Positions 10,001 through 64,000 of a stretch of 64,000 nucleotides of DNA are shown piece after piece. The stretch lies in NCBI RefSeq assembly GCF_964355755.1, contig NC_092673.1:30261001-30325000 (forward strand), in the 5' to 3' direction. Within the stretch, counting starts at the first letter, position 1; each line of letters starts with the position of its first letter. Origin of the DNA: Antedon mediterranea (Eukaryota > Echinodermata > Crinoidea > Comatulida > Antedonidae). The notes under the pieces are model-generated. The model saw nothing but the letters and a program-made list of their open reading frames with translations. It was not told where the DNA came from and ran no database searches. The translations under genes and the position numbers were made by a program.

Positions 10001-10936
10001 TACACCAAATATGGTAGCGACATGCCCAACTATGGTAGCGACATGCCCAAATATGGTAGCGACATGCCCAACTATGGTAGCGACATGCCCAACTATGGTA
10101 GTGATATGATATCATCATCATCATCCATATATGGCCACTTAAAATGTTTTGTCACATCAAGTTTGATAGTGTAGACAGAGCTTTAGGTATTAGTTTTATA
10201 TCAAAGATATTTAAATTCTTACTGATGATATCACTTAGACCTCTGACATCTCTAGCTGCCGTTATATGCTCTGGCTCAACTGATGCTTCTATTGATTTCA
10301 AAACCGTTTGCCTTAAAATAAAAAATGTAAATCAATAAAACAAAATTGGTATTATACTCTAGTTTAAGATATAGTTTACTCTTACAAAACCATCCTCCTG
10401 GACTTGAACTTTGACCCAAACCTACCTATACAATACAGGATTCTCCGACTTGTCATCATTTGGGTTACCTTCAATCCACAGCACTTGACGTTTATTCAGT
10501 GACCTTTCACCCATCTCCTTCCTATTTTCTTTAACAAGTGGGATGCCATTTTGTTTAGGAATAACTTTCTTAGGATTTGCTTTTGATTTCTCTAAAGCTT
10601 GCACAAGTTGAACCTATGAATAACATAATTTATAGTATTATCTAAAGTATTTTGAAAAAAATTTTAATATAATAATTACCATATATATTACATATTTTAT
10701 TATGTAACTATATACCTGTGTGTGCTAATTATATGTAGTATGTACAGTATACTTTACAATAATTTGGTAAAAAATATGAATACTGTGTATGTGATAATTA
10801 GAAAACAGTACAATAGTTACAAAACAATGATACATTTTATTGATAGACCAAGGCTTCCTCTTACCTCTGCATCGAATATCTGTCTGTACACTTTACCACT
10901 TTGAATCACCTTGCAGGGTTGCTGTGTGTTAGCCAT
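1011..10936 (-). CDS. CCDC180: CCDC180 (coiled-coil domain protein), 19 N-terminal exons, 3' part outside window
   Basis: Coding exons in gene order: 10865-10936 (ATG at 10936), 10426-10613, 10223-10311, 9567-9676, 9044-9110, 8261-8298, 7710-7844, 7181-7440, 6766-6885, 6276-6444, 5962-6084, 5314-5487, 4772-4887, 4158-4284, 3546-3665, 2280-2542, 2056-2137, 1611-1885, 1011-1157. Every junction has GT-AG borders and reading phase is preserved throughout, giving about 891 codons. The N-terminus reads MANTQQPCKVIQSGKVYRQI, and exon 4 contains SGSDIIDRISESRRQRHEEA; both resemble the N-terminal region of vertebrate CCDC180 as I recall it. The protein is rich in charged helices predicted as coiled coil. 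Exon 15 encodes a Lys/Glu then Ser/Arg-rich linker. CCDC180 is associated with cilia and sperm flagella; molecular function is poorly known. The last exon seen ends on a donor at 1010, so the C-terminal half lies left of the window. Confidence 0.86.
1305..1483. mobile_element. Palindromic MITE (family A), copy 1
   Basis: Small inverted-repeat element in a CCDC180 intron. The left end resembles CTACACTACACTTGTTTGAC and the right end is the inverted form ending near GCAGACAGAGC. The middle holds about two copies of a 21-bp motif containing CAAATATGGTAGTGATATG. Related copies lie near 4041, 7000, 10005, 45170 and 62485. Confidence 0.75.
2630..2800 (+). repeat. SINE core fragment
   Basis: This stretch shares a diverged core with the SINE at 33605-33900, including GGACTATAA, GCAGGTC and ACTTTAAAGAACC in the same order. 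It lies in a CCDC180 intron and has no tRNA-like head, so it is probably 5' truncated. The family name cannot be given from sequence alone. Confidence 0.55.
2800..3545. other. AT-rich intron with poly(T) and poly(A) tracts
   Basis: CCDC180 intron sequence with no coding signal. It contains a run of about 30 T near 3195-3222 and a run of about 27 A near 3318-3343, which face each other and could form a foldback. A short inverted pair ACTCTCTC / GAGAGAGT lies just before the A run. These tracts may be remnants of poly(A)-tailed retroelements. Confidence 0.6.
4041..4156. mobile_element. Palindromic MITE (family A), copy 2
   Basis: Shortest copy of the family, with one internal CAAATATGGTAGTGAT motif. 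The two arms GTGATGTGCCCA and TGGGCACATCAC are inverted around a centre at about 4095. It lies in a CCDC180 intron. Confidence 0.75.
4500..4745 (+). repeat. Non-LTR retroelement 3' tail
   Basis: A region resembling the 3' end of a LINE or SINE, finishing in a simple tail with AATCAATAAAATCAATCAAT. It lies in a CCDC180 intron just before the exon at 4772. No reverse transcriptase frame is present, so only the tail was inserted or survives. Confidence 0.45.
5060..5290 (+). repeat. tRNA-derived SINE
   Basis: A tRNA-like head with a B-box-like segment (GAGTTTAAGTCCTG) follows GCTTGGTGGTGGATGCTTGG. The same head occurs inverted at about 6175-6265 and 44770-44880, and direct at about 57945. It lies in a CCDC180 intron. 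Confidence 0.6.
6100..6265 (-). repeat. tRNA-derived SINE, reverse orientation
   Basis: Reverse complement of the SINE head seen at 5060. On the minus strand it reads GTAGCTTGGTGGTGAAGATG, and the B-box-like segment is GGGTTCAAATCCTG. It lies in the intron between CCDC180 exons 10 and 11. Confidence 0.6.
7000..7165. mobile_element. Palindromic MITE (family A), copy 3
   Basis: The left end CTGTCTACACTATCAAACTA is matched by the inverted right end TTTGATAGTGTAGACA, making these the clearest termini of the family. The middle has about two to three diverged 21-bp motifs. It lies in a CCDC180 intron directly beside the exon at 7181-7440. Confidence 0.8.
8476..8910. mobile_element. Tc1/mariner-pogo type MITE with TA duplication
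   Basis: Inverted ends of 24 bp: the left begins CAGTAGAACCTCCATTTTAC, and the right is its inverse with two mismatches. A TA dinucleotide flanks each end (8474-8475 and 8911-8912), as expected for Tc1/mariner insertion. The 435-bp interior has no transposase frame, so it is non-autonomous. It lies in a CCDC180 intron. Confidence 0.85.
10005..10190. mobile_element. Palindromic MITE (family A), copy 4, with internal 21-bp tandem array
   Basis: The core 21-bp motif (ATGGTAGCGACATGCCCAAC and variants) is repeated five times between about 10010 and 10110. The right arm ends with TTTGATAGTGTAGACAGAGC. The left arm is diverged. It lies in the intron before CCDC180 exon 3. Confidence 0.75.
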
Positions 10937-14328: not shown

Positions 14329-16358
14329 TTAAATTTGATGGGCGATCAGTGAGGGGTTCTTTCCAGACGAGGATGGTAAATGTTCTGTAGAAAAGAAAAT
14401 TTTTAAACAAATTAAAACATTTGAGATTATATGTGTATGTATACAAATGTCGATCATCTAGTATATACATTTTGTTCTATAGTATTACTAAACTTGTGTC
14501 TAGAATATTTAAAGCAGGGTTCGAAAAATCATCATGACCTTATAGGCCTCAGTGGGTTTATTTACCGTCACTTCTACTGCTGTCCTATAGTTTAAAAACA
14601 GAAAAAAGTGGGGTTCGTTTGACCCTCGAATGCCCCACTGGCTACAGGCATATATTTACTACCTTACCATTGTTGTTCTGTGTTGTAGGCCTCACTGGGA
14701 GGGGGATTGCCCCGGGCTGACCAGGTATCGGAAGCTGCTTCTCAATACTTTTAGGTATCTCTCTGTTGTTGTTTTTCATGTTTGCTTGAGTGTCACTTTC
14801 GTCTAGAACTCTTGAACTAATAATTTCATCATCACTGGGTCTTGGTTTTCTCTCAGCAACTTAATAAAAGAGGGAAATATTTATATTAATAAAACAGTAA
14901 TTAACTATACAATAATACTTTATTCTCAGGTTCAGGTTATCAAATCGCAATGAAAATAGTTTTCCAGAAAGTGAAATGAATCACTCTGAATAGTTAAAAT
15001 TCTAAATGTCTTTATTAAATCTAAAACACCTGAAAATCCACGAAGAAGCAGACAAAGTTGTTGACCAGTAAAGCTTAAATGTCGTTAATGAATGTGAAAG
15101 CAGCAACAAGCTACATTGACAAAATACCATAGGTTTACGGTACTTACTTGAAACAGGTGGGTGATTCTTGAGGTCCTCTAATGCAACATTTAACCGTTTA
15201 ACTATAAAAACTTGTGTTCTGTTTTTCATTAGAGACTTAACAAAAATTTGGAAAGCAGTATGTCCGCGTCTTTTTAGATAGCCAAGGAATGTTCTACACC
15301 TCTGCCTCGTTGTGGTCTGTGACATTATGTCTTCAACGGTTTCTTGATCAAATATTCGTTCTGAACGCAAGAAATCGACATGGTCTGAGGGGTTGATGTT
15401 ATCACAGAGAAAGGCAAAGTTATTTTCAATAACCTGTTGAGGAAAGCAATGGGTTATTATTTATATATGAAATAAGTGTTTAATTAATAAATTATTTTAT
15501 GTTTACCACATTATTCTAAGTAATTAAACTGTCCGGAATGTGGGATGTCTCCCCATTTATTGAGTTTGCTACGTTGTGCATGTGGTTCGTCCCGGCCCCG
15601 GTCCCGGCTCAAATACGTCATGTAAAAGGGAAACCCCCATGTATTTTTTTTTTGTAATTTTCGTTACCAAGCTGCTAAAGTTCTGGCCAATCAACAACTA
15701 TGAATTTTTGCGCGCAATATGTTACGCACCAGTAGTTGCCCAGGGAATAACCATGTCCAACCATTGCATTCTAAATCTTGCAGTCGAACGGAATACAGTA
15801 GGCTTATGGTATTGCTCATGGAGGATACCTCCATGGTATTGCTTAATTGTGTGATAATTTAAAAAACAATTATTTTAAGTACGTGCAAGGTAAGTAATTT
15901 TTCGAACAATCCACGCATGCATCCTGGGATATTTTGTCCAGACGACGGTTTCTTTGGCATTTAATATCAACAAACAAAAATAATATAATTCAGTCACAAC
16001 TAAACGAAGACATGGAATAATCGGCTACTGACTGCCACCCAGAGGTCTTATTAATCACTTATCTAAATTGATTTCTGTTTCTTTATTTGACTAAACATAA
16101 GTTAGGGATATTCTTTTATTTTGCAATACTAAAGGTAAGCCTCTATTATTCAAATATCATTATTCACATTCCACCCACCGACCACCGACCACGTCATCAA
16201 AATTTATTCAACAATAAACAAACATACTTCCTGAATGTCGCCGACATTCCATGTTCAATACAACATACTTAGCTAGGCCTACAGAGCACTGAATGATCGT
16301 GTCTTACCTCACAATGCAGGAAATGTTCATATTCTTCTTTTATTGAAAATCGTGCCAT
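14329..16358 (-). CDS. BCL10: BCL10-like CARD adaptor, four exons
   Basis: Exons: 16308-16358 (ATG, start MARFSIKEEYEHFLHCE), 15148-15434, 14668-14859, 14329-14384 (ends with TAA). Exon 2 encodes a CARD: FAFLCDNINPSDHVDFLRSE, then RIFDQETVEDIMSQTTTRQR and later KNRTQVFIVKRLNVALEDLK. This lines up with the BCL10 CARD pattern (LC..I, H.D.LR, T..R.R, T-Q-F). Exon 3 ends with LPIPGQPGAIPLPVRP, like the Pro-rich tail of BCL10. Length is about 195 residues versus 233 in human. BCL10 bridges CARD-coiled-coil scaffolds to MALT1 and TRAFs to activate NF-kB. Exon 1 in its natural frame does not join exon 2 in frame: one extra base near 15420 shifts it. A start at an internal ATG in exon 1 (MNISCIV) would restore frame. 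A TRAF gene lies next to it on the same strand. Confidence 0.75.
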
Positions 16359-19079: not shown

Positions 19080-22000
19080 CTATTGCTGCTTTAACTCAAC
19101 ACTCACTCTAATAAACATAGTGTCTTCTTTTATGTAAGCATTTCTGCTCTTCTCTACTTCATTTGGTGTAATAAACAGTGGGCATCCTGTCGGGATATTA
19201 CGTTCAGATTTCGGTCTCTGGAACGACGTACTGTTTGGTTCTGGTTTGAAACCATCCATGATGTGCTCGAAGTTATTCTGGTCGATTAACATGAACTTAA
19301 CAATGTGTTTGAAAGGCCACGGCAGAGTAGCGTCATACTTACCACGCAACAACATAAAGAAAATGGAGAAGTGCGAGCCTTTGCCGACTCCATCACCATT
19401 CAGAAACAAGCGGCAGCACATCTTATAACCGTGTGGACCAGAGTAGAACACTGGTGAGTAAATAGATGACCCCTGCTGTATTGCTTCTCTTCTCTTTTTT
19501 CCATAATCAGAAATTTTCCAGATTATGATTCCATTATGGGTGGCGTTTTCATTCTCAGTTATCTTCTCCTGCATTTCCAAAATGGTGTTTTGCAAAACAG
19601 CTAACTGCGTTGGTAACGATGTCATGCTGCTCTTAAATTCTTCTAAAACTTTCAACCTTTCATTAATCTTATTAATTTGTTTTCCAATCTCTTCTGATTG
19701 GTCACTAAGTACCTGCATAGCATCCTGGTATGTTTTTCCATTTCTGTCCAAGATCCGCAAATCTTTCTCTAATTTCTTGATCTGTCTTCCTTGCTTGGTT
19801 ACCATATCTTTGAGACTAATATCCTCCTTATCTGCAACTATGGCATCTACAATCTTTGCAAGCCCTTTTCCAACCTCTTCAACAGTCTCTGTCTTCTTGT
19901 CTTTGATCTTAATATTCATGTGACCTACTTCAGTAGCAAGAGATTCTACAGGAGTAGCAGTTGCAGTTGCACCTATGTTATCTCCAATCTTTGCAAGTTT
20001 ATCTGCACCCTCTGAAAACTTGTTTAACTCTTCTTTAACTTTGACATTAATATCTTCACCTTCTCCATGACTAGCAGTACTTGCTGCATTTATGCTATCT
20101 CCAATCTTTGACGGACTCTCTGCAGCCTTCTCATAATTCGAATCCTCACTTACTTGAGGTCGAAAACCACTCTTCAAGTGAACTTCCATGAATTCCTTTA
20201 CAAGAATGGAAATAAACTGCCGTACTTCAGCAGATTTCAATAGCGTCGGAGTTGCCAACAGGCTTTCCGATGCAAGCTGCTTCAGCTGTTCGACATCCTC
20301 CAATTCAGAACTTGTTGAGGCACCTGCTTGTTGTTCATCACAAGAGTCTACAGATTTGCTTTCTGGTTTACCAAACGAAATCTTATCTTGCTGTTTTATT
20401 TTTGTATTGAAATCTGATTTGTGGTACACTTTGAAGAAAGGTAGAAAGGCGCGGCAGAGTAAGGTTAGATGCTCTTGGATGTTATCTTGCAAATGTTTTT
20501 CAGCTGTGTACAAACTCAACTAAAAATCAAACGATATTTCTAATTATATTTAGGTGATTATAAACTAAATGCAAGGAACAATAAAAAAATGTATTCTACT
20601 TAAGCTTACTGCAGTAATATGTTAAATTATTGAAATTTCTTTTTCATATACAATATTTCTATAAATTAGAGCAAACTGTATTGCAGTAAATGTAATTTCT
20701 GCAGTAACTGCAGTAGAATAAGTTTGACATGATTCTTTTAACATTTTCTACAGAATAAAAGTAATAACCATTAGTGTAGTCCAGCGTCAGTGTACAATGT
20801 AATTTCATAATTTACTTACTTTTGTGTTACAACCAAATTGTGCAAAGACACAGTTGTTGCTTTGAGAACGGGGGCAGTCTCCGGTTTCATTATCTTGATG
20901 AGATGATAACTATAAGAAAAAAACACATGGTATTTTTGTTGTTTAACAGTTTCATCAGAGTTACACTTGTTTGTATACAAAATTAAATAATTAATACACA
21001 CACTGTAAGTTAATAGTAGCATAATTAAAAACTCTGATAGCCAAACTTTTTCATAGATTTAAATCCTCTATTAGGCACAGTACCAAAGAGTCTATGAATG
21101 GATATTTTCAACCTAGAATATTGTTTGTTTTTTTAGTATACTTGCCTAACCAAATTTCGTATATTGTTTATTTGATTATAACTTACAGTATCTCTGAAGA
21201 GCTTCTTCCCACAATACTGACATTCAACTTCTGATTTTGGACATTCTGTGGTGTTGTGTTTCTAAAAGAAAAAATAAAAATTTGAACAACTTTCTACAAT
21301 AAATATTATAACAAATTCCACCTGAAGTAAAGTTCAGAATGATTGTCCTTTATGAAGTAATGTGGACATAAAAATACATCAGGCACTTTAAAAAAAGGAC
21401 CTTGCTCAACGCAGAAAGCAATGGAAAACCATATGAACTGGATGACATATATATGGATTTACAATAACAATTTCTATTTTTTTGAAATTTAAAAGATATA
21501 CTGTATCTGTTTGGTTAAGCACCTTAAGCATTTTTGGTACTCATTGGTGCTACATCTCTTTCAAAACGCATTGGAGAGGGATGGAAGTGGTTCATATTCA
21601 AATATGGCACTTCTTCATGACACAATAAATATAAATTTAACAATACCTTAAGAAACTTATATGCAATCGCACCATTACAGCGTTTGCAGTAGAATGGCCG
21701 GTATGGACATTCTTTTTCAGTGTGAAATTTGTATGCTGCTGTTTGGATGTATTTTCCACAACCAGGATGAGAACACAGTTTGGTTTTGTAACTACAGTTG
21801 GCTTCATGGGCCTGAAATAAAAATGTAAAAAAAAAAAAAAATAGTTTGCTTCGTAGAGCAAAGTGATACATACTGAAACTGGACGTATGGCAGTTACTGT
21901 TTCAGATTAATCATTATAATATTTGGATCATAAGATATTAGCTTTTTTCTGTAATTGTTTCTGTAATGTAATCAATGATGCAAATTTATAAATGTGTATA

Positions 22001-33900: not shown

Positions 33901-34387
33901 CAAACGTTTCACGGTACATCTGAGATAGATAAGGTAGGTAACCAAGGCGGAGATATGTCCCGTAGTTTTTCCATTGTGCTCGATCGCCTATATCAGAATT
34001 ATCCATAATTTATATAGATTATAGGAACATCTAGCATTGACAATTGAATAAATTGGTTGTCAAGTAAAGTTGATCAATGGTTTATGATTATGGTAAGATA
34101 AAAAGTTTATCCAATGCCAAAAAAAAAAAAAATTATTTCAAAGCTGACTCTAATGACATACATATTCAATTGATTAATTTACAAAGTGAATGACTTGACT
34201 AAATAATTTAGAGTATAAAGAAACTGAAATTGAAAATTATTTAATGAAACATTCCAACTGGACAAATTAAAATTTAAAAAAGAAAGTACTTAAGAAGTAG
34301 AAACTAAATAATTATTAGGTTGAGTTGCTACTTGTTTACCATTGCTTATAAGTTATATCGCTCAGTTGAGTCATGTTAAACCAAGGT

Positions 34388-35835
34388 TCTTTCAATAATT
34401 ACAACAGCTTCACAAGCGATTCCTTCTTTTTGCCCTATGAAACCCAACTGTTCTGTGGATGTGGCTTTTACGTTAACGTTGCTGATGTCCGTTTCAAGAT
34501 TCTCTGAAATAACTTTGCAGCATCAATATAAGGTGCCATTTTAGGGGCTTGCGCCATGATGGACATCAACGTTTCCAATGACATAGCCTTTTGTTTTGAA
34601 TTTGCCATAGACATCACGTAATAAATCACCACTATCTGCACCTTTCCATTGTTTGTCTGTATCTGGAAAATGTCGGCCTAGGTCACCGGCTGCTATCGCA
34701 TCTAACAAGGCATCACACAGTGCATAGAGTACAACATCCCCATCAGAATGAGCAATGATCCCAAAGATCAGTAAACATCTTGGTGTAAACATTGATGAAA
34801 CGCTAAGCTGGAATATACTCGTGCGAAGGCTCTAAAAGGTTTAGGTATGCTCAAACGATGTAGACACATTTTTCAAAATAATATATTATTAAGAAATATT
34901 GCAAATTTTATTATTATTTTGTTCTACTCTACTTTCTGCTATTATTATATTATTTTGTAACTTTGTAGGTTTACTTGTAATTTGTGTTTTTCATATTTGT
35001 ATTTTGATGGAATAATTTGTATTGTAATCCACCCTTTTCAGCTTTTGCTGCTGGTGTGGAAGTTGTTTTAAACCATAATAAATAGATAAATAAAAATTAT
35101 CCCACATTTAACTTATTGTATTGTAATGTGGGGTAATTGTGGCTCGAGCTTTATAAAAAGAGTACAAACTGTACAAAATAGAACAGCCCGAATCATAGTT
35201 GGCCTATCTTAGGGCACACCAAGTAAAGATGCACTTGAGAGAGTAATATGGCTTACCCTCTCAATTAAAGATAAGTATGAATGTTGCATGTTAATTTATA
35301 AAGTTATGACGGGGCGTGTACCTATATATCTATCAAATCTGGTTAAACAAAATAATTTCAAATATAACTTTAGACATAATGATACAAACCTCTAGGCCTT
35401 TATGTTCCGAAACCGCGCACTGAGTATAAAAAACGTATATTTCTTATAGGGGGGTTATAACCTGGAATAAACATAATATTGATATCAACAAGATGCCACA
35501 ATCTCTGAACGTATTAAAAAAAGAAATTGCAAACATATTTAAACAGGAAGCCTAATGCTGTATTATTTTATAAATTCTTTCTTTTAATGTTTTTCTATAA
35601 ATATGTATACACTGTATTATTTGTATACATGCATTACCTATCACGAACTTGTTGAAGAACACCTTTATTTTATGGTGAACGAGCTTTATATTTTGTACTA
35701 TTGTAGGCCTGTTTTATAATTTCGTGAATAAATAAAGGTTCTGATTGTTCATAAGGAATGGGAACACCACCTAAAATAACTGGCCCTTCTCTGCCGACTC
35801 TATGCACATCAAAACCAAGACCAATACGAATCATT
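34388..35835 (-). pseudogene. ispF: ispF pseudogene, interrupted by retroelement
   Basis: Two pieces match the intact copy at 37465-37947. The N-terminal piece is 35747-35835 (starts [17 protein letters not shown]) and the rest is about 34388-34760. They are separated by about 1 kb of inserted retroelement sequence. The downstream piece has small deletions around 34490-34570 that break the frame after [11 protein letters not shown]. The conserved metal-binding His of the GDVVLHAL segment is Tyr here (GDVVLYAL), and His6 is Leu. It is a dead copy; similarity with the intact copy is still high, so the duplication is fairly recent. Confidence 0.92.
34761..35746 (+). mobile_element. 5'-truncated non-LTR retroelement inside ispF pseudogene
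   Basis: The plus-strand sequence encodes pieces of a reverse transcriptase C-terminal region. [14 protein letters not shown] lies at about 34770 and KRVQTVQNRTARIIVGL at about 35160-35210, both typical of CR1/L2/jockey-type LINEs, with frame breaks between. A second tail-like insert at about 34910-35095, ending in AATAAATAGATAAATAAA, splits it. The 3' end is near 35746 (GAATAAATAAAGGTTCTGAT). It is a fragment without coding capacity. Confidence 0.8.
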
Positions 35836-36161
35836 GTTTAACCTTACCTCTCAATCTTTTATTTACTGGATAGTAGGCCTACAAGGAAGGTAGGGTTATT
35901 TACTTCTTTTAAATATCAAAGATAGTTTGTACTATGAGCTATTTTGTCATAAGAAGATACCTGGTATATTGGCCAACATCATACACTATCAACAACCTCG
36001 ATTGGGTGCGGCAACATGGGATTCCCAGAGAATTTGGGAATCCCGAAAGAAAGAGGGGGTAATTCCAAAAAGTATGGAAGGCCTTCACTGCCTTCTGCAG
36101 CGCCTTTTTCTGTTCGGCCCTTTTATCAATTATGATTTTTCCAAGAAAAAAAAAAGTACAA

Positions 36162-38520
36162 GCCGAATCTTTAATGACATACATTTATTTAATTTTATTA
36201 AGTTACAAAGTGAAGTGACTCCTCAGCCTAAATGTTAGAAAATAATTTACAGCTTGTAGTAAAAGATATTTCACATCTTTCAATTAACTTATGAGGATTG
36301 AAATTTCATAATTCAATACCAATAATCTTAAATATTAATTTCCATTACTTTTAATTCACATAAACAACATATTTATGGTAAAATACTTATACAATATTGT
36401 TTGATTTTTGTACTACTGTATAATACTGTATATAAATAAACAAGCTAGATTGTCCACAACTGTTGGCCATATTATAATCAGCATACAGTATATAGTATCT
36501 CTTAAAACTCACACTACAAACGGATTGAAACGATGGGATTGGAAGAACTGAACTAGCTAAACATTAAACAAACTTCACTATAAATAATTGACATACAATC
36601 ATTAGTATGTTATAGTACAATATAACCAATAATCTTGATACTAGTATTATGTATTTAGTACAGTAGGGTAACACTATGTTTTTTCAACAGGTATACAATT
36701 TGATATGTGAAAAACTAAAAAAAAAGAAAAGAAAATATACACTTTTTTCCCTCCAGAATAAACTTTAAAGGGAAAAATATTGCGAAACTCCTACATAATA
36801 GTGAAAACAGAAATAACACATTATATATGAACAATATCTTAAGTTGGATAATTCATATTGAAGAAAATAAAAATAATCATGGTTTAAGTTTTCTTAAAAT
36901 ATAGTAAACAGATGAATTTGAAATAATTGTTGACTTCCTCAGGTAGCGCATAACAAAACTACCTAATTCAGTAACAAACATACAGTACAACACTCCTCCT
37001 TTCAGCTGATCTTAAAAAGATGTCCCCTTGATATGTCTATTGTACTTTAATTGTTCATTTTGACTAATTTTTCTTCTGAAATTGTGTAATTTACTATTTG
37101 ACCACAATAGGGGACAATAGGCCTATTGCTTAGATGTGTTTAACAAATAAATATACTTTTTCTTGTATATTACAACACAAATTTAATTATATATCAGATA
37201 GGTAGGCCTACAAACGTTTTCATATTCAATATTTGAATATTCTTTTCATTCATTGCCCTACACATATACAACCACAGTATAACGAAACTGAAAATTATTT
37301 AATGAAAAATATTTAATGAAAATTTCCAATTGGACAAATTAAAATTTAAAAAAGAAAGTACTTAAGAAGTAGAAACTAAATAATGCAGTAGCGCCAATAA
37401 TTATTAGGTTGAGTTGCTACTTGTTTACCATTGCTTATAAGTTATATCGCTCAGTTGAGCCATGTTAAACCAAGGTTCTTTCGATAATTACAACAGCTTC
37501 ACAAGCGATTCCTTCTTTTCGCCCTATGAAACCCAAATGTTCTGTGGATGTGGCTTTTACGTTAACACTGCTGATGTCCGTTTCAAGATTCTCTGAAATA
37601 ACTTTGCACATAGCATCAATATAAGGTGCCATTTTAGGAGCTTGCGCCATAATGGTGATATCAACGTTTCCAATGACATAACCTTTCATTTTGACTTTGC
37701 CATAGACATCACGTAATAAATCACCGCTATCTGCACCTTTCCATTGTTCGTCTGTATCTGGAAAATGTCGGCCTAGGTCACCGGCTGCTATCGCACCTAA
37801 CAAGGCATCACACAGTGCATGGAGTACAACATCCCCATCAGAATGAGCAATGATCCCTTGTTCATAAGGAATAGGAACACCACCTAAAATAACTGGCCCT
37901 TCTCCACCGAATTTATGCACATCAAAACCATGACCAATACGAATCATTGTTAGTGTGTGTTTCCTTACCTTAATCAACCTATACCCAAAGAATGATATAT
38001 TATTATATTCTTTGCTATACCTTATCTACAAGAGTAGGCCGCGCCTACAAGGAAAAGGGAAGGTAGGTGTGTTGGCTTATTTACTTCTTTTAAATATCAA
38101 GCAAGGATAGTTTGACTATTTTGTCATAAAATACCTGTTATAGGCCAACAAATCATACACTTATCAACAACTTAACCTCGTTTGGGTGCGGCAGCGATAG
38201 GGGATTCCCAGAGAATTGCTCGAATTCGGAAAATCATGAGAGAAAAAAAGAGGGGGTAATTCCAAAAAGTATGGAAGGCCTTCACTGCCTTCTACAGCGC
38301 CTTTTTCTGCTCGGCCCTTTTATTACGTACATTCTTGTCCGCAAAATTGAAATGTCTGTTGTTGAAAATGTATTTTTTCGCCGAAATGGAATTCGATAAA
38401 ACGTCTGAAATGACGTGTACAAAGTTCTATGATTGGATCTTTGGCAAAAATTATTGTTTTACCGTATTCAATTTATTGCAATTTTATAAAAAAAAATGTA
38501 AATTATGGTTTAAAAATAAG
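36162..38520 (-). repeat. ispF tandem unit, copy 2 (intact)
   Basis: Unit made of an AT-rich 3' flank of about 1.3 kb (36162-37464), the intact ispF, and an upstream block to about 38520. Its flank matches copy 3 at 38524-39730 along most of its length, including ACAGCTTGTAGTAAAAGATA-type runs and TTGTTTGATTTTTGTACTAC. The segment 38333-38520 has no equal in copy 1. Confidence 0.88.
37465..37947 (-). CDS. ispF: 2-C-methyl-D-erythritol 2,4-cyclodiphosphate synthase (IspF), bacterial type
   Basis: Intact frame of 160 residues, the usual IspF length (E. coli 159). ATG at 37947 is chosen because the protein begins [18 protein letters not shown], matching the bacterial start. IspF makes MEcPP from CDP-ME-2-phosphate in the MEP isoprenoid pathway. 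Metal ligands D9, H11 and H43 are present, with the [18 protein letters not shown] segment, [23 protein letters not shown] and [10 protein letters not shown] in order. The Arg usual after GADS is Gly. Overall it looks gamma-proteobacterial. It has no intron or obvious transit peptide. It lies among animal repeats and is part of a tandem duplication, which argues against simple contamination. No other MEP gene is seen in the window. Expression cannot be judged; a TATAG/GTTGATTAAG acceptor-like site lies about 30 bases upstream of the ATG. Confidence 0.94.
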
Positions 38521-38523
38521 CAT

Positions 38524-39730
38524 AAGCCGACTCTCTAATGACATACATTTATTCAATTTATTAAGTTACAAAGTGAATGACTTGACTAAATGTTAGAAAA
38601 TAATTTACAGCTTGTTGTAGTAAAAGATATTTCACATCTTTCAATCAAATAATTTGAGGATTGAAATTTCATAATTCCATACCAATAATCTTAAATATTA
38701 ATTTCCATTACTTTTAATTCACATAAACAACATATTTATGGTAAAATACTAATACAATATTGTTTGATTTTTGTACTACTGTATAATACTGTATATAAAT
38801 AAACAAGCTAGATTGTCCACAACTTTTGGCCATATTATAATCAGCATACAGTATATAGTATCTCTTAAAACTATAAAAGGGCACCATTCACGCAGACTAC
38901 AAACTGATTGAAACGATGGGATTGGAAGAACTGAACTAGCTAAACATTCACTATAAATAATTGACAGTATGCATACAATCATTAGTATGTTATAGTACAA
39001 TAAACCAACAATCTTGATACTACTAGTATTATGTATTTAGTACAATAGGGTAACACTCTGTATGTCTGTCTTTTCAACGGGTATACAAATTGATATGCGG
39101 AAAACTAAAAAGAATGTAAAAACCTTTTTTTTCTCTCCAGAATAACCTTTAAAGGGCAAAATAATGTGAAACTCACACATAAAGGTTAAAACAGAAATAA
39201 TACATTATATATTAACAATATTGTAAGTTGGAGGAATCCACTACTGTAAAAGGTAAATAATAGGTTTTCTTCAAATAGAGTGAACAGATGAATTTTAAAT
39301 AATTTATGACTTCTTCAGTTACCTACATTAGTAACAGAACATACAACAGTAGAACACTCCTCCAAGAGGCAAACTTTGTTTTGTTCTAAAGACTAAAGAT
39401 GTCATCTTGATAAGTTTTTCTACTGTAATTTGTTTTGACTAATTTTTCTTCTGAAATTGTGAAATTCACTATTTGACCACAATATTGCTTAGATGTATGA
39501 CAAATAAATATTACATTCTTTCTTATATTAATACAATACAACTTTAAAAACTAACATTTTAAATTATATAAGACAAGTAGGTATGTTTTCATCTTCAATA
39601 TTTGAATATTCTTTCATTCATTGCCCTACACATATACAACCACAGTATAAAGAACATTAAATTGGAAATTATTTAATGAAAATGTCCAACTGGACAAACT
39701 AAAGTTTAGATAAGAAAGTTGATGAGAAAC
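38524..39730. repeat. ispF tandem unit, copy 3 (flank only)
   Basis: Matches the 3' flank of copy 2 (36162-37370) from GACTCTCTAATGACATACAT to AAGTAGAAACTAAAT-like sequence, with scattered indels. It stops just before the point where ispF would begin. The open frame at 38776-39000 is low complexity and not a gene. Confidence 0.85.
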
Positions 39731-42700
39731 TAGAAACTAAATATAAAAGATATGAAAATAAAATAAAACTATATATGTTGTATATTATTGAAAGCAAAAC
39801 TAATTAAAGCTAAATTAATTTCCGTCAACATTGATTTTTATTCATCATATTCTTCAACAAAATTATATTCATTTTGTTATTTGTTCATATTATTTCAAAA
39901 TCAAACATTCCAAATGTCATCATAATGTATTTGAATACGGTTTCTGTTGATAAAATAACATAAACAAAAATATCTATTACCACTAGAAAACTAGCTATTT
40001 TTTTTATAAGCTATAAAAAATTATAAAAACTGAAACGGAAGACGTCTAGCAGAAAAGAACCAACAGAAAATACCACTCAAGATCTATGACTAAAAATGTT
40101 ATATCAGTAAATCATTAATAATTCCTTTTAGAAAATATTCTTGGTCCAGAAACGTGAATGGCACATGAAAAACATACAAATTCATATTTGAAGCAAAATA
40201 AAATCTCCAATAATTAAATCATAAAACAATATATTTAAAATAAAAAATTGTTGTAATAATTTCCACCAATTCAACAATACATATATCTCTTTCTTATCAA
40301 AAAAATCAGGTTCTATATAGTTTTTTCATTTCATTTTCATAATTAAATGAATTTTCTGTAACATTCACAAATCAATCTATCCAAAGGGTCTCCTCAATAT
40401 AGAATATACTGTATATAAAACATGGTTCTACGTTGTAGGGGCACTTTTGTTAAAACAACTGCCAGTAAAAGCAATTTTTCTACAGAATTTTTTAAACAAT
40501 TTTTGTTCCTGGCCAGCAAGATAACAGTCACAAACTATACATTTAATAAATAATATATATTAATAAATCATTATGCAATAGTGGAGGCTTTTTTCTCTCA
40601 TAACAATCAAAACTTTAAATACCAAATTCAATTTTACTCTATAGCACTTTACCCCAATAAGAAGCAACCTGACGAGATTCTGCTTATTGTATGTTGTTCA
40701 TCTGTTATTTAAAATAAATATAAATGATAACCATGCCATTCTCTATTTAATATTATAGTTGGCATTATTCAAATGCCAACTATATTTTGATAATTGATGC
40801 CATTTTTTTCGTACAACAGTTCTTCATTGGTTCAAATGCACTTGGTGAAATGTTTCAAACACATTTCAGAACATGCACCAAACTCTTTTAATGTCTCAAC
40901 ACAAAAATTGGAAAAACCAAATGCACCATGGAGGCTTTCAAGTTGGTTGATCATCAAACATCCAAACATATTCAAGCAAAAATTGAATGAGAGAATGCTA
41001 TTTTTAATTATTTTTACAGTGATTAACATCCAGGGTGCATCTGAACCAATGGAAGAACTCTTGTATAGAAAATAATCAGCATCTGGAATACTAACAACTT
41101 ATTTATTTATTTTAATGTTAATTAGCATTCAATACTAACTAACTTTCATATTAATATCAGTCCATGTGTGTAAAGATCCGTTTACGACAAAAAAGTTGAT
41201 GAAACCTTTAAAAATTATCATTCTGCAAATAAAGTTATTTACACACTTCCTCTTTTGATTTCGGTTTTCCCTCCACTAAAGCCTCAAAATTAAAATTTAT
41301 TAGATGTATTTTTAATCAATTTTGCAAAAGATGGTTTTTGAAATTGCTTAGTTAATGCTTAATCTACTCTAACTTTCCTAAATTCTGAGATTGCTCGAGT
41401 TTGCAAACAAAAGTTTGCCAGTGTTAGTTTTTACCAAACTAGTGTACTTTGCCAAAGTTTTTCAACTGGTCTACACAAGCAAAAATTTGAAACTTTTCTT
41501 GACAAACACAGGATTTTTGCTCAAGTTTGCAAACAAAAGTTTGCCAGTGTTATAGTTTTACCAAACTTGTTTTCAAAGTTTTTTCCGAGTTCCTTAAAAC
41601 TACTGTCTCTGAGTAATTGTTTCCACCTGCAGAAACACATTGAAAACAACTTGACTAGATTTGATTCGCTGAATTCACAAATCTCAGAAAACTAGTTTGT
41701 TAAGTAGATGGATGTCCAAACTGTTGCTAACTAGTTTTCTGCAGTTTACCAAAGTTTGATCTGCAAGAAACTTTGCAAACATTTTCTCTAAAGGTTTCTA
41801 ACTAGTGTAGACTTTTGTATAAAAATAAATTGCGTGACTTGCTTGTTAACACACAAGTTACCTAAAATTAAAACCAACCCATCCTCATAAATTTTCAGAA
41901 GGGGAGGGCAAAGAAAATATTATTCTTTTGGCCTAACTTTCTCCAAAAACACGGTTTCAATATCTTTATTTGGACCAGATTTTTGCACATCATTTGTACA
42001 ATAATATTCACTATATCCATGATACACTAATAGATATAATGAGGCCTATACTAAAAATGTAGAATTATATACAATATGAATTTAATAAAATCTATATCTT
42101 TTCTACATTGTCATTGTAAAATGCATCACAACAAACATTTTTCACGATTGAACGATTCACCAAGCACTTGAAATGCATCACAACAAACATTTCTTAATTA
42201 CAGTCGCTCCAAAATTAACCTGGGTGCTATTTTTGGAGAATTGACTGCCTATATTTTAATAAATTATTCAAATTATTATAAGCCAATAAAATGTTGGTAG
42301 TTAGATACCATTTACCTATTTTGAACAAATTAGTAATATTTGATATCTACAATGTTTATAACCATTGAGATATTATATGGCCTTACAGATTGCACATTTT
42401 ACCCAACAATAAACACATAGTATATTAATCGTAATGTTCACATAAATGATTAAATATAACAATAATAATTATCACGAAACTGGTTAATTATAATAGTAGT
42501 GTATACCATGTAGACAAAAACGGTATAATTAACATTTTATGTGTAAGTTAGTAGATACTTAGAAATAGTAATACTAAAATAATACTATATTTATTAAGAT
42601 TTTGTGTATAGATACTGAAAACAGGTAGTTAATTAGATGCAACAAATGTCATTGTACTTTAAAAGAACATTTTTAAGAAACTGTGTCAACATTATTTTAC

Positions 42701-44588: not shown

Positions 44589-64000
<19,412 letters not shown>

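Follow-up and report, generated by a model that had tools for sequence, protein, structure and literature searches.

Animals are known to have acquired bacterial genes by transfer, and many of these genes have decayed or function in digestion, defence or a symbiosis. IspF, an enzyme of the MEP pathway, acts on a CDP-linked polyol phosphate, from which it liberates CMP. Humans lack the pathway, which for that reason is treated as a drug target (PMC2151065, in excerpt), and no animal ispF was found described in the literature searched, which holds few subscription papers; the accessible portion of PMC7912892 has no mention of animal, metazoa, opisthokont or MCS. Two described animal systems come close to the locus reported here. 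CRPPA/ISPD, the animal homologue of IspD, is likewise a MEP-type enzyme present in animals outside the MEP pathway, but it is a different protein family with a different reaction and is represented in this genome by two exons on contig C2. The shikimate genes of Nematostella are bacterial metabolic genes in a marine animal genome (PMC4237138, in excerpt), whereas here a single enzyme is present and later pathway steps were not found. The nearest counterparts of the protein itself are the IspF proteins of Vibrionaceae (Grimontia, Enterovibrio, Vibrio and Photobacterium), with which it shares the fold, the zinc ligands, the second-metal Glu and the cavity Arg. In contrast to the bacterial gene, which stands in the order ispD-ispF-truD, the animal copy lies in a chromosome without the operon, five bacteria-invariant residues differ in both animal copies, and DXR, IspG and IspH were unmatched in the animal genome. 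Overall, we think it probable that the locus represents a lone, domesticated MEP-pathway enzyme of Vibrionaceae origin that was duplicated, with one copy now dead and the other kept by purifying selection.

The window, that is, the whole 64-kb stretch of Antedon mediterranea DNA that was analysed, corresponds to bases 30261001-30325000 of contig C4, ~30.3 Mb into that contig, in an assembly of 354,431,138 bases and 18 contigs. It contains zero Ns. Ten other frames in the window were scanned, and five of them, located at 7-21 kb, had OCIA, CARD, TRAF/MATH or DUF4455 domains; one more had a Myb/SANT domain, and 4 of the 10 had no domain match. The DNA is animal, as indicated by these domains and, in agreement with them, by the presence outside the window of HMG-CoA reductase and a CRPPA homologue. 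Searches of the genome for COX1 and for molluscan haemocyanin had no match, and the haemocyanin search had none in the controls either. The observation of the sequence-only reading that an intact bacterial-type ispF is integrated in an animal chromosome was thus borne out by the animal-type genes in the same window and the lack of Ns. A contaminant contig was ruled out by the position in the 18-contig assembly, the animal-type domains and the duplicated units, and the ispF locus is a horizontal transfer.

The intact gene (copy B) is located at 37465-37947 on the minus strand and is open from ATG to TAA, encoding 160 aa (the stop-to-stop frame is 186 aa). The Pfam profile YgbB spans residues 2-155 (E 2.7e-67, 226.4 bits against a cut-off of 26.7), the NCBIfam ispF profile TIGR00151 scored 223.5 bits (cut-off 116.45), and all 30 distinct PDB sequences that matched are IspF or IspF-containing. 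In E. coli IspF the zinc ligands are Asp8, His10 and His42, and in the alignment to E. coli positions these correspond to D9, H11 and H43 of copy B. The Asp-His-His set is strictly conserved in IspF (PMC3927217, in excerpt). The second-metal acid, Glu135 in E. coli numbering, is E136, and copy B also retains H35 and S36 as the His-Ser pair, R143 and E145 as the Arg-Glu pair of the cavity and, in the cytidine pocket, the Pro-Lys-Met segment at residues 104-106. These matches, together with the profiles, agree with the earlier description of a full-length IspF with conserved metal ligands and signature segments. A structure model of copy B, for which 16 sequences from the window and the loci were used, had a pLDDT of 79.9, with residues 65-69 and 141-143 below 50. 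Its best PDB match was 1t0a (TM 0.84) and all 50 matches listed were IspF or IspDF, so that copy B is predicted to have the IspF fold.

A single Thr to Ser replacement is the one departure from an otherwise preserved CDP-binding site in copy B. At the position of E. coli Thr133, both animal copies have Ser134, which retains the hydroxyl, whereas Thr is present in 80 of 80 Vibrionaceae. The available text of two papers describes Thr133, which binds the alpha-phosphate, as strictly conserved in IspF (PMC2151065) and the CDP-binding side chains as conserved at >95% (PMC3927217). In addition, a Thr that lines the cavity, a role taken from the part of PMC2151065 available, is replaced by Ile in both copies. 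Ser134 and the cavity Ile may represent tolerated drift or a changed preference.

The sequence-only reading had also pointed to a local duplication, and comparison of the window with itself by blastn confirmed it. Unit A occupies 34212-37275 and is followed by unit B, with the intact ispF, at 37276-39643; a third unit is truncated to its beginning (39644-39743) and lacks ispF, as the ispF protein search gave copies A and B only. A genome-wide ispF search produced three matches, all from these two copies, and a search with the 5' flank of the unit (37948-39743) produced five, at this locus alone. Protein search and self-comparison placed copy A on the minus strand in two parts, with residues 1-30 at 35745-35834 and residues 31-160 plus the stop at 34376-34762, the latter part having 2-base and 4-base deletions. 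Between them lies a 982-base insert (34763-35744), delimited by comparison with the unsplit copy B. Copy A is dead, as it is split by this LINE-like insert and has two frameshifting deletions. With its frame judged by eye, the insert reads as holding a reverse-transcriptase-like (LINE) tail; this resemblance, by eye, is what speaks for the LINE fragments that had been noted at the locus. Over 477 aligned coding bases the two copies show 22 differences (4.6%), compared with flank divergences of 3.1% (37320-37464), 15.2% (38060-38323), 4.5% (38512-38990) and 16.9% (38991-39640). The jump from 4.5% to 16.9% within 38512-39640 may point to gene conversion or to a history of patchwork assembly of the units.

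The gene is of bacterial origin. At least 575 relatives of the copy B protein were found, and the best 80 of these were all Vibrionaceae, with 74-82% aa identity over nearly the full length; DNA identity over the gene was 71-76% (loci L001 to L050). Near-identity to a known bacterium, which the sequence-only reading had named as a point against an animal gene, was looked for and is absent, the closest match among those best 80 being Grimontia hollisae at 82% aa. In an 85-row protein tree the two animal copies join (100/100) and the pair groups with Grimontia, Enterovibrio and Veronia (88/98), in a tree whose bootstrap is unsettled, with many open forks and an Aeromonas outgroup row inside an open Vibrionaceae fork. 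The animal stem in that tree is 0.47, and the longest other Vibrionaceae branch is 0.25. A DNA tree placed the pair elsewhere in Vibrionaceae, and AU tests do not decide the placement within the family. On these comparisons the source family appears to be Vibrionaceae, with protein tree, DNA tree and AU tests not agreeing on a donor genus. This would be explained by a donor that is an unsampled or fast-evolving member of the family, or by much of the stem evolution having occurred in the animal. Plasmid and phage sources were considered and rejected: 65 plasmid records matched, the best listed at 70.3%, and 17 phage records matched, the best listed at 63.3%, with none among viral contigs and no near phage DNA match.

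In bacteria the order ispD-ispF-truD is annotated and was also read from frames in the relatives' loci. No credible match to ispD, truD, surE or ftsB was found in the 64-kb window, and a search for an ispD remnant upstream of ispF scored no better than shuffles. Directly after ispF, a stretch at 37409-37463 on the minus strand, identified by eye and with shuffles, may be what is left of the 5' end of a bacterial truD. This truD-like stretch follows the stop codon in both copies, with a one-base frameshift common to both, and against shuffles it had p ~0.01 as protein and ~0.03 as DNA; whole TruD against the window gave nothing credible. The stretch is suggestive only, because the frameshifted reading was chosen by eye.

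To polarise the differences between the copies we used the 80 Vibrionaceae genes, in which 87 residues are invariant. Copy A has changed at 13 of these residues and copy B at 5. The latter five (Leu32, Ile58, Arg75, Thr134 and Thr141, which are Ile, Leu, Gly, Ser and Ile) are found in both copies and hence predate the duplication. Private changes after duplication at the invariant sites thus number 8 in copy A and 0 in copy B (one-sided sign test, 0.004). Counted by hand, copy A has 9 clear missense changes, and the single one of copy B is at position 127, where 79 of the 80 bacteria have Asn (sign test 0.011); sites 87, 97 and 137 are ambiguous to polarise, and a best guess for them brings missense to ~10 versus 3 (one-sided 0.046). 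Indels show the same one-sidedness, copy B having none, compared with the two deletions and the insert in copy A.

A purpose-written codon model was fitted to codons 1-155 of 16 sequences (14 of the 80 relatives and both copies), with the copy A codons touched by deletions set missing. When equal copy ages were imposed, omega was 0.84 for copy A (omega = 1 not rejected, p 0.72) and 0.15-0.16 for copy B, for which omega = 1 was rejected (2dlnL 7.1, p 0.008); equal omega for the two copies was rejected as well (p 0.025). A second topology, set by hand and fitting ~34 log units worse, gave p 0.012 for neutrality of copy B, and a parametric bootstrap of 400 neutral simulations with the background fixed gave a one-sided p of 0.0075. 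For the whole stem, omega = 1 was rejected (2dlnL 24.2) and no neutral stretch was required, a constraint that includes bacterial evolution; the stem likelihood drops by ~2 near 0.14 neutral changes per codon (interpolated between grid points). Purifying selection on copy B after transfer thus has statistical support, at small counts and under the equal-age constraint only.

The main rival to domestication is that the locus is a neutral relic, a fairly recent bacterial fragment of which both copies are drifting and one has by chance not yet been hit. We regard this as somewhat unlikely, although several results fit it. When branch lengths were left free, omega of copy B was not determined and omega = 1 fitted it equally well, and the coding sequences of the copies have not clearly diverged less than the uneven flanks. 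Furthermore, in a substitution-only neutral simulation the chance of no internal stop was 0.61-0.79 for 17 to 8 changes. Against drift of both copies stand the rejection of neutrality for copy B in the equal-age model, with which the bootstrap agrees, the one-sided private changes and indels, and the rejection of a purely neutral stem, for which no neutral stretch need be assumed. A recent non-functional transfer was one of three options offered by the sequence-only reading, and it is this option that the selection contrast between the copies disfavours. Far less probable, indeed barely credible, is an assembly artefact, in the form of a misjoined bacterial contaminant or of two haplotypes placed side by side. 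Marine animals are commonly highly heterozygous, which would favour an artefact, but both copies lie within animal flanks, parts of three units are present and the window is free of Ns. Moreover, the identity of 82% to the closest of the best 80 relatives and the lack of credible matches to other operon genes in the window also argue against such an artefact.

The genomic background of the ispF gene was assessed with searches that covered, of the MEP enzymes, DXR, IspG, IspH, IspD and IspF. No match in the genome was found for DXR (PF02670), IspH (PF02401) or IspG (PF04551) by searches that may miss weak or split genes and were positive in 10, 10 and 9 of 14 control genomes, respectively. The IspD search matched two separate exons, of which the one tested was closest to 4cvh (E 1.5e-17), a chain named isoprenoid synthase domain-containing protein; judged from these sequences, the match is CRPPA and not a Vibrionaceae transfer. 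Within the enzymes covered, ispF is the single bacterial-type MEP enzyme found, as had been proposed. HMG-CoA reductase gave 20 matches at about six places, three with internal stops, and is apparently multi-copy in this animal. The sites are C4:11.38 Mb, C5:4.25 and 4.26 Mb, C3:25.88 Mb, C4:28.25 Mb and C11:0.42 Mb. As HMG-CoA reductase is present and DXR, IspG and IspH are unmatched, the mevalonate route is likely present and the MEP route likely absent.

We hypothesize that a short piece of Vibrionaceae DNA with ispF, and possibly the opening codons of truD, became integrated into an animal chromosome, where a later tandem duplication took in its animal flanks as well. Copy A died through the LINE-like insertion, the two frameshifting deletions and missense changes at invariant sites, and copy B would have been retained by purifying selection. 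A constrained gene with a preserved catalytic site is most simply an enzyme, and we infer that copy B is expressed and its product active. That product, predicted to be a trimer, would bind a CDP-linked polyol phosphate at the zinc/magnesium site and release CMP. As the neighbouring MEP steps were unmatched, its substrate would be bacterial or another CDP-linked compound, and the enzyme would act outside the MEP pathway, with the CDP-linked metabolite supplied by the host or by microbes. The remaining options offered earlier, another substrate or a symbiont's intermediates, look alike at the level of sequence, and each individual substrate idea has a low probability. A lone enzyme accompanied by a dead sister copy, which acts as a built-in neutral control, makes the locus a clean case for the fate of an orphan enzyme after transfer.

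A CDP-alditol phosphate as substrate is speculation, on which two facts bear: the host has a CRPPA homologue, and the CDP-binding site is kept save for Thr to Ser. In a tentative and rather doubtful reading, the lone enzyme was domesticated, with no working MEP pathway around it, to cyclise or cleave a host CDP-linked polyol phosphate, with the Thr to Ser change part of a substrate shift; if true, this would be a reaction which no animal was known to carry out. An unlikely version of the domestication reading is that MEcPP is made from CDP-ME 2-phosphate leaked by symbiont, gut or prey bacteria, for detoxifying, scavenging or signalling. The intact catalytic site would suit this, as would the stem, which is strongly constrained although part of it was evolution in bacteria. 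Against it, IspG and IspH, which would use MEcPP, were unmatched, as was DXR, which would feed the pathway, and Thr133 is Ser. Still less likely is a version in which CDP-ribitol or CDP-glycerol, donors for the dystroglycan glycan, is converted to CMP and a cyclic polyol phosphate. In favour of this version, CDP-ME without the 2-phosphate is cyclised by E. coli IspF, if slowly, but CRPPA is widespread in animals without ispF, and no residue change indicates such a substrate. The CRPPA/ISPD homologue in the host is consistent with it, as ISPD produces CDP-ribitol in the cytosol (PMC8478517, in excerpt). Finally, it is very unlikely that copy B was kept not for catalysis but to bind, in the trimer cavity, isoprenoid diphosphates that the host makes by the mevalonate route. 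The E. coli IspF cavity binds farnesyl and geranyl diphosphate and IPP, with the regulatory effect unproven (PMC2151065, in excerpt), and copy B retains the cavity Arg-Glu pair in a host with HMG-CoA reductase matches. However, the metal ligands, needless for a binding role, are kept, and the cavity-lining Thr is Ile.

Additional features were observed in the window. A CARD frame (15002-15460) and a TRAF/MATH frame (19080-20519) lie <4 kb apart and are a possible innate-immunity gene pair. Two tRNA-Val (AAC) genes were predicted by ARAGORN at 54808-54880 and 55091-55164, of which Rfam supports only the second. Long minisatellite arrays are located at 1-989 and 62525-62669, with units of 28 and 21 bases, respectively, and a unit resembling the 21-base minisatellite recurs at 10005-10108.
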